Below are positions 11,673 through 61,170 of a stretch of DNA of 64,000 bases, piece by piece (position 1 is the stretch's first letter; each line of letters starts with the position of its first letter). Below the pieces are notes generated by a model. It was not told the origin of the DNA and did no database searches. It saw nothing but the letters and a program-made list of their open reading frames with translations. Source of the stretch: Gemmatimonadota bacterium (GTDB lineage: Bacteria; Gemmatimonadota; Gemmatimonadetes; Gemmatimonadales; Gemmatimonadaceae). Both the position numbers and the translations under genes were made by a program. The stretch lies in NCBI GenBank assembly GCA_003134685.1, contig PLCA01000005.1, positions 558,001 to 622,000 of the forward strand, read 5' to 3'.

Positions 11673-12125
11673 ATGGAACTACGCGATTTTTTTGCTGAAG
11701 ACGCGATCAGGCTGGAGCTCGAGGGAATCGCCAAGGACGAGATTCTCAAGGAACTGATCGGCCTCCTCGGCCTCGACGACAAGTCGGAAGGGATGTTGTT
11801 CAAGATGTTGAAGCGCCGCGAGAACCTCGGATCGACGGGCATCGGTCGCGGGATCGCGATTCCCCACTGCCGCTCGCTGGTCGTGTCGAAATTGCGCGTC
11901 GCGTTCGGGAGAAAGAGCGTGGGCGTAGACTTCAAGGCGATAGACGACAAGCCGGTGTTTTTCTTTTTCCTGATCGTCGCGCCGCCGCTCGAAGTTTCCA
12001 ACCAATACTTGCCGGTACTCGGGAAGATCGCGCAGTTCAGCAAGGAGCCGGACGTGCCCGAGCGGTTGTTGAAGCTGAAGGAGCCGAGGGAGTTTATGCA
12101 GCTTCTAGAGGAGAAGAACCTCTAG
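11673..12125 (+). CDS. PTS EIIA domain protein (EIIA-Ntr/fructose type)
   Basis: A 150-aa single EIIA domain. The phosphorylatable histidine is His65 in GIAIPHCRS, within the family-specific pattern RENLGSTGIGRGIAIPH. The region FFFFLIVAPPLEVSNQYLPVLGKIAQ follows as expected. Without adjacent EIIB or EIIC genes, a regulatory (nitrogen-PTS, PtsN-like) role is more likely than sugar transport. In other bacteria such proteins control potassium uptake, sigma54 genes or stress responses depending on phosphorylation. Whether this one does so cannot be read here. Confidence 0.88.
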   Translation: MELRDFFAEDAIRLELEGIAKDEILKELIGLLGLDDKSEGMLFKMLKRRENLGSTGIGRGIAIPHCRSLVVSKLRVAFGRKSVGVDFKAIDDKPVFFFFLIVAPPLEVSNQYLPVLGKIAQFSKEPDVPERLLKLKEPREFMQLLEEKNL

Positions 12126-12199
12126 GAAAACTGAACAGAACGGGATCTGAGATCTGAACTGCGGAAGAGAACGGGCTCCGAGATCTGAACTGCGGAAGA

Positions 12200-12259
12200 G
12201 AACGGGATCTGAGATCTGAGAAGCTCAGATCTCAGAACTTAGTCACTGCGCTCTGACCC
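12200..12259 (+). repeat. Left terminal inverted repeat of element A
   Basis: It begins GAACGGGATCTGAGATC, contains a hairpin-forming palindrome and ends with the core TAGTCACTGCGCTCTGACCC. The core and outer GAACGGG are shared with elements at 43.4 and 46.8 kb. Confidence 0.85.
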
Positions 12260-12355
12260 CACTCGGCACTCCTCCTGACGTAACTCGCGACGCGTCGGAT
12301 TGCCCTCCAATCGAAACGATGTCGCCATTTCCAATTGTTAACGCTTTCCTTGGGC

Positions 12356-12760
12356 GTGAGCGATTTCAAGAATCTCAAGGTTTGGCGTAAGGCCCATGCA
12401 CTTGCGCTGAATGTCCATCGCGCGACGGTGCAGATACGAGGAGCCCAGTTTGTATCGCTTCGAGGTCAGCTGATTCGCGCCGCCTTTTCAATTCCGACCA
12501 ACATCGTTGAAGGAAACGGCCAGGAGAGCGCTCAACAGTTTGCGCGCTTCGTGCGCTTCTCGCTCAACTCGACCTCGGAACTCGAGTACCACTTGATCGC
12601 CGCGCGAGACGTACGGGTGATCACGGCCACTGACTTCGACTCACTGACCAGCCAGACCGTAGAAGTTAGAAAGATGCTTTACGGTTTACTTCGTCACCTC
12701 GACCGCGTGAGATTGGATCCGGCGGCTCCGAAGGGTCCGAGCGCAGTGACTAGATCCTGA
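12356..12760 (+). CDS. Four-helix-bundle protein (23S rRNA IVS / S23 family)
   Basis: A 134-aa protein of the S23/IVP family, matching its hallmarks: DFKNLKVWRKAHALAL at the N-terminus, LRGQLIRAAFSIPTNIVEGNG in helix 2, and the helical SELEYHLIAARD segment. The GTG at 12356 is chosen because family members start directly at the (M)xDFxxLxVW motif. Homologues were first found in intervening sequences of 23S rRNA genes, and the same fold forms the Avd accessory protein of diversity-generating retroelements. Biochemical function is not established; nucleic-acid binding is likely from the basic surface. The last ten codons lie in the right inverted repeat, tying the gene physically to the element. 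Confidence 0.88.
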   Translation: MSDFKNLKVWRKAHALALNVHRATVQIRGAQFVSLRGQLIRAAFSIPTNIVEGNGQESAQQFARFVRFSLNSTSELEYHLIAARDVRVITATDFDSLTSQTVEVRKMLYGLLRHLDRVRLDPAAPKGPSAVTRS

Positions 12761-12792
12761 GATCTGTGCTTCTCAGATCTCGGATCCCGTTC
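12733..12792 (-). repeat. Right terminal inverted repeat of element A
   Basis: The reverse complement reads GAACGGGATCCGAGATC and ends in TAGTCACTGCGCTCGGACCC, pairing with 12200-12259. Its inner 28 bp encode the C-terminus and stop codon of the four-helix-bundle protein. Confidence 0.85.
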
Positions 12793-12826: not shown

Positions 12827-14371
12827 CTACTCCCACTCGATTGTAGCCGGCGGCTTGGAGCTAACATCGTAAACAACGCGGTTTATCCCCGGCACCTGAT
12901 TGATGATCCGGGTTGATATCCGCGCGAGCACCTCGTGCGGGAACGGGTACCAATCCGCGGTCATTCCGTCCGTGCTCGTCACTGCGCGCAATCCGAGGAC
13001 GTTCTCGTAGGTCCGCTCGTCGCCGAGGACACCGACACTTCGCACGGGCAGCAGCACCGCGAAAGCCTGCCATATCTCGTCGTACAGCCCTGCCTCGCGA
13101 ATCTCCTCGAGATAAAGCGCATCCGCCTTTCGAAGTAAGTCCAACTTCGGCTTGGTGACTTCGCTGAGGATACGAATGGCGAGACCGGGGCCGGGGAATG
13201 GATGTCGGGCGACCATCTCCTCGGGGAGTCCGAGCTCGCGTCCGACGTTTCTGACTTCGTCCTTGAACAACTCCCGCAGCGGCTCGATCAGCTTGAACTT
13301 CATTCCCGGCTTGAGTCCACCGACGTTGTGGTGAGTCTTGATCGTCACCGATGGGCCACCGCGCGGGGAGAATGACTCGATGACATCAGGATAGAGCGTT
13401 CCCTGCACCAGGAAGTCGACATCATCGCCGACCTTGGCGGCGGCATCCTCGAACACATCGATGAAGGTGTGCCCGATTGCTGTCCGCTTCTTCTCGGGAT
13501 CCTCGACGCCGGCGAGCGCGCTCAGAAAACGCTGCTCCGCATCAATCGTGATCAGTTTGATTCCCTGATTCGCGCGGAATGTTCGCTCGACCTGTTCCCG
13601 CTCGTGGAGTCGGAGCAAGCCGGTGTCGACGAAGATGCATGTCAGCTGCTCCCCGACTGCGCGATGCACCAGAGCGGCGGCCACTGATGAATCAACCCCA
13701 CCCGACAATCCGCAGATCACTCTAGACTTGCCGACCATCTTCCTGATGCGGGAGATCTCTTCCTCAATGAAGGCGCCGGCAGTCCACGTGGGTTCGGCTT
13801 TGCACACACCGAACAGAAAGTTCGAGATGATCTCTCCGCCGCGCGGTGTGTGCGCTACTTCCGGGTGGAATTGCACTCCGAAGATTTGCCGAGTTTCGTG
13901 GCGGAATGCGCTGATCGGATTCCCGTTGCTTTCCGCCGTCACGCGATAACCCTTCGGCGGCTTCTCGATATGGTCACCGTGACTCATCCAGGCCGTGACG
14001 GGCTCCTTGGTGGAGAAGCCCGCGAACAACCCTTTCGGCTCCAGAATCTTCATCTCCGCGCGACCGTACTCGCGGCGATCGGTGCGGATCACCTGTCCGC
14101 CTTCGATGTGCGCGATGAGCTGCATCCCATAGCAGATGCCGAGCACGGGGGCGATGTCGAAGATGGCGGGGTCGGCGAGCGGTACGTTGTCACCGTAAAC
14201 CGAGTTGGGTCCACCACTCAGGATGATGCCGGTGGGCTTCCATTCGCGAATCCACTCGACCGTGCGGCTGGGCGGATGGATCTCCGAATACACGCGCGCC
14301 TCGCGCACCCGCCGGGCAATCAGTTGCGTGAATTGTGAGCCGAAATCGACGATGAGGATCCGGCTGCTCAT
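12827..14371 (-). CDS. guaA: GMP synthase (glutamine-hydrolysing)
   Basis: A 514-aa enzyme that aminates XMP to GMP. The N-terminal class-I glutamine amidotransferase has its nucleophile Cys80 in LGICYGMQ and the His/Glu pair in QFHPEVAHT. The ATP pyrophosphatase domain has the PP-loop [14 protein letters not shown]. The C-terminal dimerisation domain ends with the conserved PPATIEWE. The ATG at 14371 makes a 4-bp ATGA overlap with the phosphoesterase gene upstream. It is the last gene of a long minus-strand operon. Confidence 0.97.
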
Positions 14372-14856
14372 AGAGTGATGTTTTCTACTTCTCCGGTGTC
14401 CGTGTCGAGAATCATCGCGGTGCATTTGCCGTGGATCCAGCCGCATGCCTCACCCGGATTGATCACGAGCGTAGTCCCAACTTTCTTGGTGCCTTGCAGG
14501 TGGGAGGAGCCGTGGACCACGAAGTCGTGGGACTCGATGGACCGGCCGCTCACTTCCGCAATGTCGTGAACGATCAGCACACGCTTCCCTCCCACTTCGA
14601 AGCTGTGGGGCGATTCGTAGATCTCCGTTCCCATTCCGCGCGCCGCGTACGCGCTCAGAGACTCGCGATCACCGTCGTTCCGGCCGAACACGCCGAGGAG
14701 TGCCATGCCCTTCTGATGAAAGGGGGAGAGGGAGAACGGGGAGCAATAGTCGCCCGCGTGCATCACCATCGTGATGCCCTTGGAATTAAATCGTTCCAGG
14801 AGGTCGGCGATGGCGGGAACGCGGTCGTGCGTGTCGGCCATAACTCCGATCCGCAC
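14368..14856 (-). CDS. YfcE/MJ0936-type metallophosphoesterase
   Basis: A 162-aa calcineurin-like phosphoesterase. Metal-binding motifs occur in order: [34 protein letters not shown] and HGSSHLQG. Related proteins hydrolyse phosphodiesters such as bis-pNPP or cyclic nucleotides; the natural substrate is unknown. The GTG at 14856 is preferred because it shares one base with the lysA stop (TAGTG) and gives the usual MRIGVxxDTH start; a further in-frame GTG lies at 14871. It overlaps guaA by 4 bp. Confidence 0.85.
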
Positions 14857-21203: not shown

Positions 21204-21684
21204 GTCGGGCGAGGATGTCCTCTTCGGGAGCTCTCGCCTGCAGCGTCGCCTTGCGGCTCGCTGCACCGCGCCGCCTTGCAGCGGCGCTGGCTCCGGCCGC
21301 TCCCTCAGAGGACATTCTCACCCTCCTTCCCACGGGATCCGTGACTGTAGCCGGCGCGATTCGCCGCGAGGAATGCCACGCGGTCTCACCCCTCGCGCGA
21401 TAGCGCGCCGAGCGTAGCTCGGCATCCCCGCGCAAACTTGCCGCGCGTCCGCTGACGCGTCCGGGACCAAGGACCGCAACCCAACCCCCCTACCGCGATC
21501 GCCGCTTGCGCTCACGGGCGAACGGCAGCGGAAACTGCGCGCGCTGTTAAGGTCTCAGGCAGGGAGGCGAGGGATGTCCTCTGAGGGAGCGGCCGCAGCC
21601 AGCGCGGCTGCAAGGCCGCGCGGTGCAGCGAGCCGCAAGGCGAAGCGGCAGGCGAGAGCTCCCGAAGAGGACATCCCTCGCCGA
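21204..21684. mobile_element. Composite palindromic element (element F1)
   Basis: This fills most of the 679-bp accD-rodA spacer. Two 117-bp modules, 21204-21320 and 21568-21684, are near-identical in inverted orientation. Each module is itself bounded by an inverted pair of the type GATGTCCTC / GAGGACATC. The 250 bp between them carry a hairpin (GCCGAGCGTAGCTCGGC, 21407-21423). A related element with the same ends and central hairpin lies at 60.7 kb. Open frames here are by-products of repeat composition. No transposase gene is present, so it resembles a non-autonomous mobile element. Confidence 0.75.
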
Positions 21685-21744
21685 CCCCGCGCGATGCACC
21701 AAGAGAAAGCGCGCACCACGATGCCCGATCGGCCGAGCTGGCAA

Positions 21745-28546: not shown

Positions 28547-28608
28547 AATTAGTTCAGGGACTCTAATTTGATTGTGAATTAACAGATTCGTCGGTGCTAC
28601 TTGAACGT

Positions 28609-28792
28609 ATGACTACCGGCCGGGGGCTGTGGGCGGGTCGGCTTGGGGCTCCGTGCTGGCCGTTCCCCTGTGGGACACTATTCAAGTGGTTTGGCGTTAA
28701 TGATTCGCAAACCCCTGCGCCGGCTCGCGCGTACCAAACAGCTCGCCCGCAGCCCACCGCCGACCCGCCATCAGCCCCCGGCCGGTAGTCAT
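28609..28792. repeat. Long inverted repeat between ald and the M16 peptidase gene
   Basis: A 34-bp arm at 28609-28642, beginning ATGACTACCGGCCGGGGGCT, is repeated as its reverse complement at 28759-28792 with two mismatches. The arms enclose 116 bp of GC-rich sequence with weaker internal pairing. The whole 184 bp could fold into one large hairpin in RNA. It carries no gene. It differs in sequence from the other repeat families in the window. Confidence 0.8.
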
Positions 28793-28813
28793 AAGTTGCT
28801 GTTGACCCCGTGC

Positions 28814-37076: not shown

Positions 37077-37233
37077 GTCGTCGGATCTATGTTGGGCCCG
37101 CGGCAACGCCACAGGCGGCCCCTAACGCGCCGGAAAGTCGTCGCGTAGTTGAGTTAAACTAATGTCGGTTCTCGGTTTGGGCGAGAGGAAAGTGTTTGGT
37201 CTGGGGGCTATCCGGCTCGCTGACATCCACAAA

Positions 37234-37431
37234 ACCAAAGCAGGGGGCTCTCAGCCTCGCAGCCAGATCGCTCGGAGCTTTTCCGTCGGCGTATGGAGCT
37301 GCGGAGTCGGGATTGTAACGGACTCATTGAGATTTCGAGGATGCGCGCGATGCTGGTCCGCCCGCATCTCCGCGCCAGTTATGAAGGCTCCCAGCGATTC
37401 GGCTGCAAAGCCTTCAGCCCCCTGCTTCGGT
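37234..37431 (-). ncRNA. Candidate 6S RNA (long hairpin downstream of zapA)
   Basis: The 385-bp space between zapA and rny has no credible gene but folds almost completely on itself. ACCGAAGCAGGGGGCT (from 37431 down) pairs with AGCCCCCTGCTTTGGT at the other end, interrupted by small internal loops. GCAGCC, ATCGCT and GGAGC also pair, followed by inner helices GGCG/CGCC, GGAG/CTCC and TGCGG/CCGCA. The 198-nt length and single long interrupted rod match 6S RNA, which mimics an open promoter to bind RNA polymerase. In proteobacteria ssrS also lies next to zapA. Strand is inferred from that synteny. It could instead be another palindromic repeat. Confidence 0.5.
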
Positions 37432-37461
37432 ATTGTAGATACCGGCTGTGCTGCGAGACGC

Positions 37462-43423: not shown

Positions 43424-43688
43424 ATCAACTGCAGCTGAATATCAACTGCAACTGAATATCAACTGCAACTGAACGGGCGGGAGGCGTCAGAGGCATAGAC
43501 GCCAGTTTGTTAGTTCACTACGCCCTGACTTTACCAGGCCCGAATCAGGGCACAAGCAACTGCCTTTGCTCAGAACGCCATAGAGGCAAGTCCGGGCGTA
43601 GTGAACTGTCGAACTGGAAACTCTGCCTCTGACGCCTCGCGCCCGTTCAGTTGCAGTTACCAGCTTCCGCCCGTTCAGTTGCAGTTAC
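43424..43688. mobile_element. ORF-less S23-family repeat element (element C)
   Basis: This fills the 289-bp spacer between the VOC and MBL genes. On the left are three 17-bp direct repeats (ATCAACTGCAACTGAAT type, from 43424, 43441 and 43458). Inverted ends of 61 bp lie at 43471-43531 and 43588-43648, both starting GAACGGGCG and carrying GAGGCGTCAGAGGC and the core AGTTCACTACGCCC. Two CGCCCGTTCAGTTGCAGTTAC repeats follow on the right. Outer linker and inner core match element A, but no protein is encoded. Confidence 0.75.
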
Positions 43689-46774: not shown

Positions 46775-47058
46775 AACTGAACGGGATCCGAGATCTCAGA
46801 AGCATAGATCTCAGTAGGTAGGCACTACGCTCCGACCGTATCGGGCGCCCCTCCTACCACTACCACCGCCTGTACCATAACGCCACTCAGATATGTCGCA
46901 ATGTAGTTCCTAAGCCCTGGCATCTACGCTTCTCAGATCTCGGATCACGTTCAGTTTGCAGTTGCTTCTCAGATCTCGGATCACGTTCAGTTTGCAGTTG
47001 CTTCTCAGATCTCGGATTACGTTCAGTTGCAGTTGAGATCTCGGATCACGTTCAGTTG
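46775..47058. mobile_element. ORF-less S23-family repeat element (element B)
   Basis: This 284-bp element lies between the arginine deiminase and rex genes. The left end reads AACTGAACGGGATCCGAGAT and continues to the core TAGGCACTACGCTCCGACC. The right side carries three 36-bp tandem units (46928, 46964, 47000; the last is one base short) of GCTTCTCAGATCTCGGAT...CAGTT plus a partial unit ending at 47058. In reverse complement these match the left end and element A. No gene is present. The right end abuts the predicted -35 box of rex. Confidence 0.8.
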
Positions 47059-47087
47059 TTGCCCCTACCCGGCCATTCCGATTAGTT
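47059..47087 (+). promoter_or_regulatory. Predicted rex promoter
   Basis: TTGCCC (47059-47064), a 17-bp spacer and TTAGTT (47082-47087). The -10 box touches the Rex operator, so a bound Rex dimer would block RNA polymerase. The hexamers are only moderate matches. Confidence 0.45.
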
Positions 47088-50975: not shown

Positions 50976-51887
50976 TCAAGGCGCGTGCTGCTCGTCGCGC
51001 CCGGCCGATTGTAGCGCTACAATTGCGGCCACGTTAATAATGTCCTCCCGCTCGGCCCCGCGCGAGAGATCGGAGACAGGACGTGCGAAACCCTGAAGGA
51101 TCGGCCCCACTGCCTGCGCACCGCCAACTCGCTGCACCAACTTGTAGGCGATGTTCCCCGCATCCAGCGACGGAAACACCAGCACATTGGCTCTTCCCGC
51201 GACCGGACTGGACGGTGATTTCCGGGCGGCAACCGCGGGAGCCAGCGCGGCATCACCTTGCAATTCTCCGTCCACCGCGAGGTCGGGCGCGCGTGCCCTG
51301 ATTATGCGGAGGGCATCACGCACGAGGTCGACGCTTGCCCCCTTGGCGCTGCCGAGGGTGCTGAAGGAAAGCAGGGCGACGAGCGGCTCGTCGCCGACGA
51401 TGAGCCTCCGGTCGGCGGCCGCGGCGATCGCGATGTCGGCGAGGTCCTCAGCCATCGGGTAAGGAATGACCGCGCAGTCCGTGAAGGTCAGCACTTCATT
51501 CACGCTGGCACCTGGCGGAGAGACCATATAAAACGCGCTCGAAACGAGTCGCACGTTGGGAGCCACGCCAATAATTCGTAGCGCGCTCCGCAAGACATCG
51601 CTGGTCGTATACACGGCGCCCGCGACGCAGGCGTCGGCCTCACCAGCGGCCACAAGCCGATGCGCAAACTCGAGGGTCGAGCCGTTCTCGGCCTGGATGG
51701 ACTGGAGGCCAGCGCGCGAGGCGGTCTCGGCCAGTCGCAGACTATCGACGACGAGAAGCGGGATCGCCATTCCAGCTCTGGCGATCTCAATGGCGGCGGA
51801 CAGGATTCGCTCGTCGCCGCTCTCCGGAAATGCTATCGTCCGCTTGAGCTCGGTCGCGCGTGCGCGGATTCGCTCAACGAATGTCAA
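50976..51887 (-). CDS. pta: Phosphate acetyltransferase / phosphotransbutyrylase family
   Basis: A 303-aa enzyme converting acetyl-CoA and phosphate to acetyl phosphate. Seen: [45 protein letters not shown] and [22 protein letters not shown]. It is the short, single-domain form. The start is TTG at 51887, lying inside a degenerate copy of a 36-bp repeat that is tandemly repeated upstream. No ackA is adjacent. Confidence 0.9.
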
Positions 51888-51893
51888 CCGGGG

Positions 51894-51988
51894 CCAACCT
51901 TGGATTCATTCAACGGAGATCAAGCGCGGCCAACCTTGGATTCATTCAACGGAGTTCATGCGCAGCCAACCTTGGATTCATTCAACCA
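51894..51988. repeat. 36-bp tandem repeat upstream of pta
   Basis: Units beginning CCAACCTTGGATTCATTCAA start at 51894, 51930 and 51966 (the last partial). The preceding 36 bp (51858-51893), covering the pta start codon, is a recognisable degenerate copy. The array fills most of the 114-bp coaD-pta spacer. Confidence 0.9.
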
Positions 51989-60670: not shown

Positions 60671-61170
60671 GTCGGATGGTGTCCTCTTCGGCTCCAGACT
60701 CTCGCTCGTGGCGCCACCGACATTTTGCGCGCGACGTAAGGGTCGGTTCGCATTGCTGGGTCATACCGATCTCTCTGTCGCTCGTGGGTTGTCGCCTACG
60801 AGGACACCCTCCGACTTCCCTTGGGCACCCACGTGGAGTCTCGTGCCTGTGTGGCGCCTCGCCCGCACCCGGACGGGTTTTGCTTGATCCCACTTCGCCC
60901 CGCCCGCGCATAGCGGGCCGAGCAACGCTCGGCAGGCCCGCCATGAAGGTGGGGATCAGATCGCGCGCTGGACGGGCGGCGCTGACGCGCCGGGCGCTTC
61001 GCGCCGCAGCAGTCAACGAGCCGCCCGGTGCCGTTGAGAGTCTGTGCAGGGAGGCGAGGGTGTCCTCAGAGGGAGCGGCCGGAGCCAGCGCCGCTGCAAG
61101 GCGGCGCGGTGACGCGAGCCGAAAGGCGAAGCGGCAGGCGAGAGCTCCCGAAGAGGACACCCTCGCCGAC
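60671..61170. mobile_element. Composite palindromic element (element F2)
   Basis: This fills most of the 680-bp spacer between rpsU and the HIT gene. The right module (61054-61170) is about 90 percent identical to the 117-bp modules of element F1. The left module (60671 to about 60826) is diverged but keeps the palindromic ends GGTGTCCTC / GAGGACACC. A central hairpin GCCGAGCAACGCTCGGC (60917-60933) corresponds to that in F1. The several long open frames across it are repeat-derived and not counted as genes. Confidence 0.7.

Follow-up and report, generated by a model that had tools for sequence, protein, structure and literature searches.

What is a gene of the S23 (23S rRNA IVP) family doing alone between two inverted repeats in an intergenic spacer, and does such a unit move? 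S23/IVP proteins have been known since rRNA intervening sequences (IVSs) were described, and two structures have been solved; to our knowledge their role has long been unknown, and the heptanucleotide repeats of cyanobacteria and other bacteria are likewise known to us without a maker. The S23 gene of the window (the whole 64,000-nucleotide stretch analysed here) was located at 12356..12760 (+), with a GTG start at 12356, a stop at 12758-12760 and 134 aa; this conserved start was picked by aligning the gene with its relatives. In the profile search it matched PF05635 (E=4.9e-28, 97.9 bits, curated cut-off 33.8) and TIGR02436 (E=2.3e-27, 95.3 bits, curated cut-off 24), and it is a clear member of this four-helix-bundle (23S_rRNA_IVP/S23) family. 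Upstream lies a PTS EIIA-like gene (11673..12125, +) with orthologues in the genus, which served as locus anchor, and the convergent neighbour is a guaA-like gene (12827..14446, -). The element occupies the EIIA-guaA intergenic spacer and is not inside an rRNA gene.

The first-pass annotation had described S23 as the sole gene between 60-bp inverted repeats, with its 3' codons inside the right one, and both statements were confirmed. The left arm (family F1) lies at 12200..12259 (+) and the right arm at 12733..12792 (-); they are 90% complementary over 60 nt, and the last codons of the gene lie in the right arm. Other S23 members also have arm-encoded C-terminal residues, for example ...PPTAPGR in L011 and L050. 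The RNA fold of the whole element gave z = -8.2, with the S23 ORF in the loop between the complementary ends. This arrangement is shared with the rRNA IVSs of Leptospira and Coxiella, which carry one ORF of the same protein family in the same way; those sit in an rRNA helix such as H9, H25 or H45, whereas the window element lies between EIIA and guaA, is multicopy and has ORF-less derivatives; its own arms have a 7-nt pitch. rRNA IVSs have been called selfish and their mobility has been hypothesised (PMC4990558). We rejected the arms as a known RNA family, since no Rfam match was found in 11600-47200 of the window, and as a promoter or terminator, for which nothing rose above chance.

Both arms contain five NAG triplets reading inward, in the left arm GAG-GAG-CAG-CAG-TAG at 12211, 12218, 12226, 12233 and 12240 (spacing 7/8/7/7) and in the right arm the same five on the minus strand. 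Among 50 distinct F1 arms the AG of these triplets was 98% conserved against 77% for the other columns, and all five triplets with 7/8/7/7 spacing were intact in 43; in 12 arms from several related families conservation was 99% in the AG columns and 69% in the remaining ones. At the same 7-nt pitch, AGC (family F4) or GGC (F5) takes the place of NAG in other arms of the genus. An identical triplet recurred at least four times at 7-nt steps in 36 of 75 genus arms; other steps gave 0-5 such arms, and shuffled sequences gave 0. Chains of (C/T/G)AG in a wider set comprised four units in 42 flanks, five in 46 and six in 6; like the other figures of the triplet and five-unit pattern, which was noticed before it was tested, these are descriptive.

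A palindrome in each of the two arms had also been described, and as a general feature this did not hold. The fold z was -3.4 for the left arm, -1.9 for the right and -0.3 for an arm of the 46.8-kb copy described below, and the hairpin registers shift between families. The palindrome was rejected as the recognised feature because it is weak or absent in the 46.8-kb arm and because of these shifts; the feature common to the arms is the triplet array at 7-nt pitch, and about five such triplets are probably what is recognised. According to the passage of PMC10053308 that cites Lin et al. 2006 (XCC0516, PDB 2GSC), S23 proteins are pentamers. We consider it fairly probable from these patterns that S23 binds the arms: as a ring-shaped homopentamer it would take one triplet of the single-stranded arm (RNA or ssDNA) per subunit, and with one triplet bound per subunit each S23 clade would recognise its own repeat. 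The model for this is TRAP, a regulator in which a ring of 11 subunits binds one (G/U)AG repeat per subunit at a pitch of about 5 nt. The likeness concerns only the proposed logic (ring protein, one (N)AG triplet per subunit, fixed spacing) and is one of analogy, not membership, as TRAP differs in its unrelated fold, 11 subunits, pitch of about 5 nt and role as a regulator rather than a mobile element.

The F1 element is not the only one of its kind in the window. The core TAGTCACTGCGCTCTGAC matched 3 times in the window with 0.02 expected. An ORF-less F1 element of two arms and a short spacer was found at 46779..46956 (+; 86% over 59 nt), an F2 element at 43461..43658 (+), an F4 element with AGC triplets at 37225..37440 (+) and an F5 element with GGC triplets at 28604..28797 (+), all three likewise ORF-less. 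Only F1 has its S23 partner inside the window; the partner is L009 on contig 11 of the window's genome (G000) for F2, L010 for F4, and L011, L012 and a broken gene in L030 for F5. The relatives at 43.4 and 46.8 kb had been taken as one family with the S23 unit, which was right for the copy at 46.8 kb and wrong for that at 43.4 kb; those at 28.6 and 37.2 kb had been missed and were found here. In L030 (5600-6050) the F5-type S23 gene is broken mid-frame, with two profile matches in different stretches, and the arms are still there.

The direct array reported left of the S23 element is real, and comprises three 31-bp units (12133..12225, +), each an outer half-arm plus an ACTGCG-type linker. A second outward array, of 36-bp half-arm units (46928..47064, +), adjoins the ORF-less F1 element. 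These two arrays and those in L018, L019, L022 and L028 extend outward from the element ends, and the outward half-arm arrays all stop at the same point near mid-arm.

The genome G000 (3.63 Mb, 16 contigs) contained seven S23 genes by profile search, one of them broken. Each one examined was flanked by its own matched arms, and the arms form at least five families of differing sequence. A genome search with the 60-bp end, counting copies with and without the gene, had been suggested for this locus; it revealed 29 matches to the F1 arm, mostly in ORF-less pairs of about 170 bp, and half-arm arrays like the 31-bp one also occur beside ORF-less copies. The idea of a single S23 protein serving a repeat family was borne out as to the ORF-less relatives, but not as to "single", for there are several S23 proteins with one repeat family each.

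Orthologous sites were compared in congeners, as had also been proposed. At the EIIA-guaA locus the F1 S23 element was present in G000 and G016, and the spacer was empty (a few to about 45 bases) in G001, G004 and G012, where the end of guaA abuts the EIIA gene. The same spacer contained ORF-less inverted pairs from other families in G011 and G006, ORF-less inverted arrays in G013 and G015, and a GxxExxY gene with inverted arrays in G003 and G007. Two ORF-less copies of the window were also absent from several congeners: no element was found at the F2 site at 43.46 kb in L315, L317, L326 and L332, or at the F1 site at 46.8 kb in L321, L322, L323 and L325. Empty and filled spacers are too diverged at these sites to define a junction or target-site duplication. 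The ORF-less copies have terminal inverted repeats, no ORF, multiple copies and presence/absence at orthologous sites, as MITEs do. In G011, the arms of the ORF-less elements at L232 and L318 resemble those of this genome's own S23 gene, L081. Matches to the F1 arm numbered 29 in G000, 23 in G014, 16 in G016, 3 in G002 and 0 in 15 other congeners. Two of these genomes fit a dependence on S23 imperfectly: G002, with no S23 detected, yet has 3 degenerate F1 arms, and G014 (86% complete) has 23 matches with no F1-type S23 found.

This distribution bears on the reading of S23 as a TRAP-like RNA-binding regulator that moves no DNA. The arms would then be its binding sites, both in the S23 transcript and in further RNAs from intergenic regions, and copies would have been kept or spread for regulating their neighbours. 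The one-triplet-per-subunit geometry, the transcript's long inverted stem (fold z -8.2) and the position in a 3' spacer would suit such a regulator. However, the lineage-specific bursts (three congeners with 29, 23 and 16 matches, fifteen with none), the empty sites, the ORF-less copies at differing positions and the arms differing from element to element look selfish, and we consider the regulator unlikely.

The inverted arms are also found at S23 genes outside the genus. Across the order, 69 S23 loci were compared with mispaired flanks from different genomes (mean 14.2, 99th percentile 28, maximum 33), and their best inverted flank-to-flank match was mostly higher, with values up to 98. For 80 loci from other genomes and phyla, a sample drawn with a narrow alignment and biased to one S23 clade (motif NIAEGH[GA]R), the median was 23 against 13.3 in the control, 49 of 77 exceeding its 95th and 18 of 77 its 99th percentile. 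The arms in other phyla are heptamer arrays. Within 250 bp of S23 the self-match at lag 7 averaged 19.2, whereas lags other than 7 and its double, 14, gave about 5, and a lag-7 score of at least 14 was reached at 49 of 76 loci near S23 but in 3 of 76 far flanks. S23 loci on viral contigs show the same signal, and the cyanobacterial plasmid S23 genes lie between arrays of GGGTGTA, CAGGGAA, CAGGTGA or CAGAATT. In the window itself the arms are of a degenerate form that has the triplets only, and they gave no lag-7 array at the same threshold. A coding or composition artefact was excluded by the mispaired-flank, other-lag and far-flank controls.

The arrays are oriented with respect to the gene. 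Three or more YAG in a chain at lag 7 were found on the inward strand in 63 of 159 diverse, 26 of 72 viral and 13 of 14 cyanobacterial flanks, and on the outward strand in 12, 4 and 0 of these, respectively. The cyclic consensus of 166 arrays read inward was (Y)AG(G)NNT, with 3.65 bits compared with 2.50 (maximum 2.65) when orientation was randomised. Within a locus, the left heptamer differed from the right one at a mean of 0.78 positions, against 3.73 (minimum 3.24) when shuffled between loci.

Heptamer arrays also follow the presence of S23. In sampled DNA of each genome, 86 arrays were found in 1,081 kb from four S23-bearing genomes (3.7-15.5 per 100 kb) and one in 828 kb from four S23-less genomes. 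Two findings had been named in advance as speaking against the unit, equal numbers of repeats in S23-less genomes and an S23 gene at this locus in relatives without the repeats; the arrays were nearly absent from the former, and the latter was not seen. Dispersed arrays carried the heptamer of the same genome's S23 arms in 32 of 37 cases in G022, where a few of the arrays are the S23 arms themselves, and in 29 of 31 in G023, whose samples contain no S23 gene by coordinates; 0-3 shared a heptamer with the S23 arms of other genomes. In G025 only 6 of 15 dispersed arrays matched the resident S23 arms. On sequence comparison we regard the architecture, its breadth and its dependence on S23 as very probably established.

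Inverted arrays also flank the GxxExxY genes (TIGR04256) of the same relatives (L238 of G003, L241 of G007, L263-L292). In their flanks lag 7 was at background (4.3), and the highest mean was at lag 9 (9.0), followed by lag 10 (7.7); the array types include GCGGAGAAC, ACGCGGAAA and CACAGATG, with a pitch of about 9-10 nt. Since the pitch is 7 at S23, array pitch goes with the resident gene, and the GxxExxY genes may represent a second element system that runs in parallel, built around another resident protein. The arms might instead be spread by an unrelated and as yet unrecognised transposase or repair process, S23 being a passenger caught between them. More than one gene can evidently sit in such units, and we know of no catalytic site, catalytic function or strand-transfer activity of S23; against a passenger stand the dependence of pitch on the resident gene (S23 7, GxxExxY about 9-10), the orientation of arrays towards S23 fixed across phyla and the near-absence of arrays where there is no S23, which make this explanation quite unlikely.

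Could an enzyme acting in trans be responsible? RAYTs are Y1 HUH transposases, and a RAYT gene is flanked by repeats that are also dispersed gene-less, one repeat family per protein. The S23 gene resembles them in its inverted repeats, which are dispersed without the gene in the genome (29 arm matches in G000, ORF-less pairs), and differs in being a four-helix bundle (PF05635), with triplet-array arms in place of REP hairpins and no Y1 (HUH) transposase between the repeats or matched by Y1_Tnp in G000. The Avd protein of diversity-generating retroelements (DGRs) is a homologous four-helix-bundle protein (PMC10053308), and PF05635 is frequent in a DGR screen (PMC10053308); Avd works with a reverse transcriptase and template repeat, and a DGR has variable repeats besides, whereas G000 had no PF00078 match. 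The element might be mobilised, with S23 as an accessory like Avd, by a Y1 transposase of the RAYT/IS200 kind or by a reverse transcriptase of the group II intron or DGR type; the superficially REPIN-like arms and the homology to Avd would conform to this. The profile search revealed no match to RVT_1 (PF00078) or Y1_Tnp (PF01797) in G000 or most S23-rich relatives, so reverse transcriptase and RAYT in trans were both rejected, and we find such an enzyme very improbable. S23 is therefore the only element-encoded candidate mover, with host enzymes.

The STRRs and other heptanucleotide repeats are tandem heptamers in intergenic spacers, and tandem 7-bp units in intergenic DNA were found at S23 flanks generally and in cyanobacterial plasmids, whose S23 genes are flanked by such arrays. 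The TAACTGA repeat of Beggiatoaceae (PMC4679880) reads CAGTTAT on the other strand, which fits the YAGNNNN of S23 arrays. Descriptions of heptanucleotide repeats name no maker; one proposal is slippage, and a mobile agent in the form of a repeat-binding protein has been suggested in general terms (PMC4679880). The published accounts found differ from ours in giving no link to S23 or to inverted pairs, and no paper linking S23 to heptamer arrays was found in the literature searched, which lay outside subscription. That polymerase slippage, as in the proposal summarised in PMC4679880, makes the arrays and S23 elements merely favour inserting there is very improbable, as the arms are inverted, left-right matched and oriented towards the gene, the arrays are nearly absent from S23-less genomes, and insertion into a direct array would leave the same orientation on both sides.

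We prefer to read the window unit as a copy of a mobile element family whose sole gene is S23, with S23 driving the spread of its own arms, and we hold this reading, which the sequence patterns suggest, to be evenly poised. Inverted arms with about five short triplets at 7-nt pitch, read inward, flank S23, and ORF-less derivatives are dispersed; S23 would act in cis on the element that encodes it and in trans on the ORF-less copies. With neither a Y1 transposase nor a reverse transcriptase detected in the genome, the DNA steps would probably fall to the host's replication or repair enzymes, working on the S23-bound foldable single strand, and fast turnover of arms and arrays would give each lineage its own repeat family. 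The first-pass annotation had proposed an IVS-like intergenic unit in which S23 relates to its repeats as RAYTs do to REPINs. This is supported by the seven S23 genes with matched arms, the ORF-less copies, the empty sites, the near-absence of arrays in S23-less genomes and the arrays matching resident arms. Of its suggestion that S23 may bind or spread palindromic repeats, the dispersal stands and the palindrome gives way to about five triplets at 7-nt pitch, binding and spreading being what we infer.

The evidence points to S23 units as mobile elements of a kind not yet described, from which a puzzling group of repeats in bacteria could stem, and they may be the origin of cyanobacterial STRRs and other heptanucleotide repeats. 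More tentatively, and short of an even balance, we might speculate that S23 represents a novel type of mobility protein: a pentameric ring, itself no enzyme, that recognises five triplets spaced at a 7-nt pitch and relies on host enzymes to spread the inverted arms of its element; it would be the source of heptanucleotide arrays (STRR, TAACTGA, others) in many phyla, rRNA IVSs would be copies landed in rRNA, and GxxExxY would be a parallel system of about 9-10 nt. The link between S23 and arrays gives S23 proteins and heptanucleotide repeats one common testable explanation, and a concrete recognition rule is proposed, in which about five triplets follow one another at a 7-nt pitch, each subunit of the pentamer takes one of them, and the triplet is specific to the family.

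In association screens, S23 elements inserted close to CRISPR adaptation and DGR loci may pass for functional partners, which could account for the appearance of "23S rRNA IVP" genes there. On plasmid pANA02 of Anabaena sp. 90 (L337), S23 with inverted CAGGTGA arrays lies between cas6 and cas4 of a type I-D CRISPR-cas cluster, and insertion of this type could explain why "23S rRNA IVP" is listed among the associations of CRISPR adaptation modules (PMC10910872). Some cyanobacterial S23 genes belong to plasmid gene clusters, which we counted against our preferred explanation. On plasmids 1 and 2 of Calothrix brevissima (L333, L334) a phage integrase family gene is followed by the same S23 unit, which has GGGTGTA arrays; the two copies share flanking genes, which indicates shared ancestry and not movement, and recent transposition on the plasmids was rejected.

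The window contained further repeats. Another inverted-repeat family was found at 21204-21685 and 61043-61167, with arms of about 105-128 bp that are 88-91% identical and by inspection not S23-type. Short direct tandem arrays of 15-bp and 36-bp units, unrelated to the S23 arms, were located at 2374-2433 and 51866-51986.
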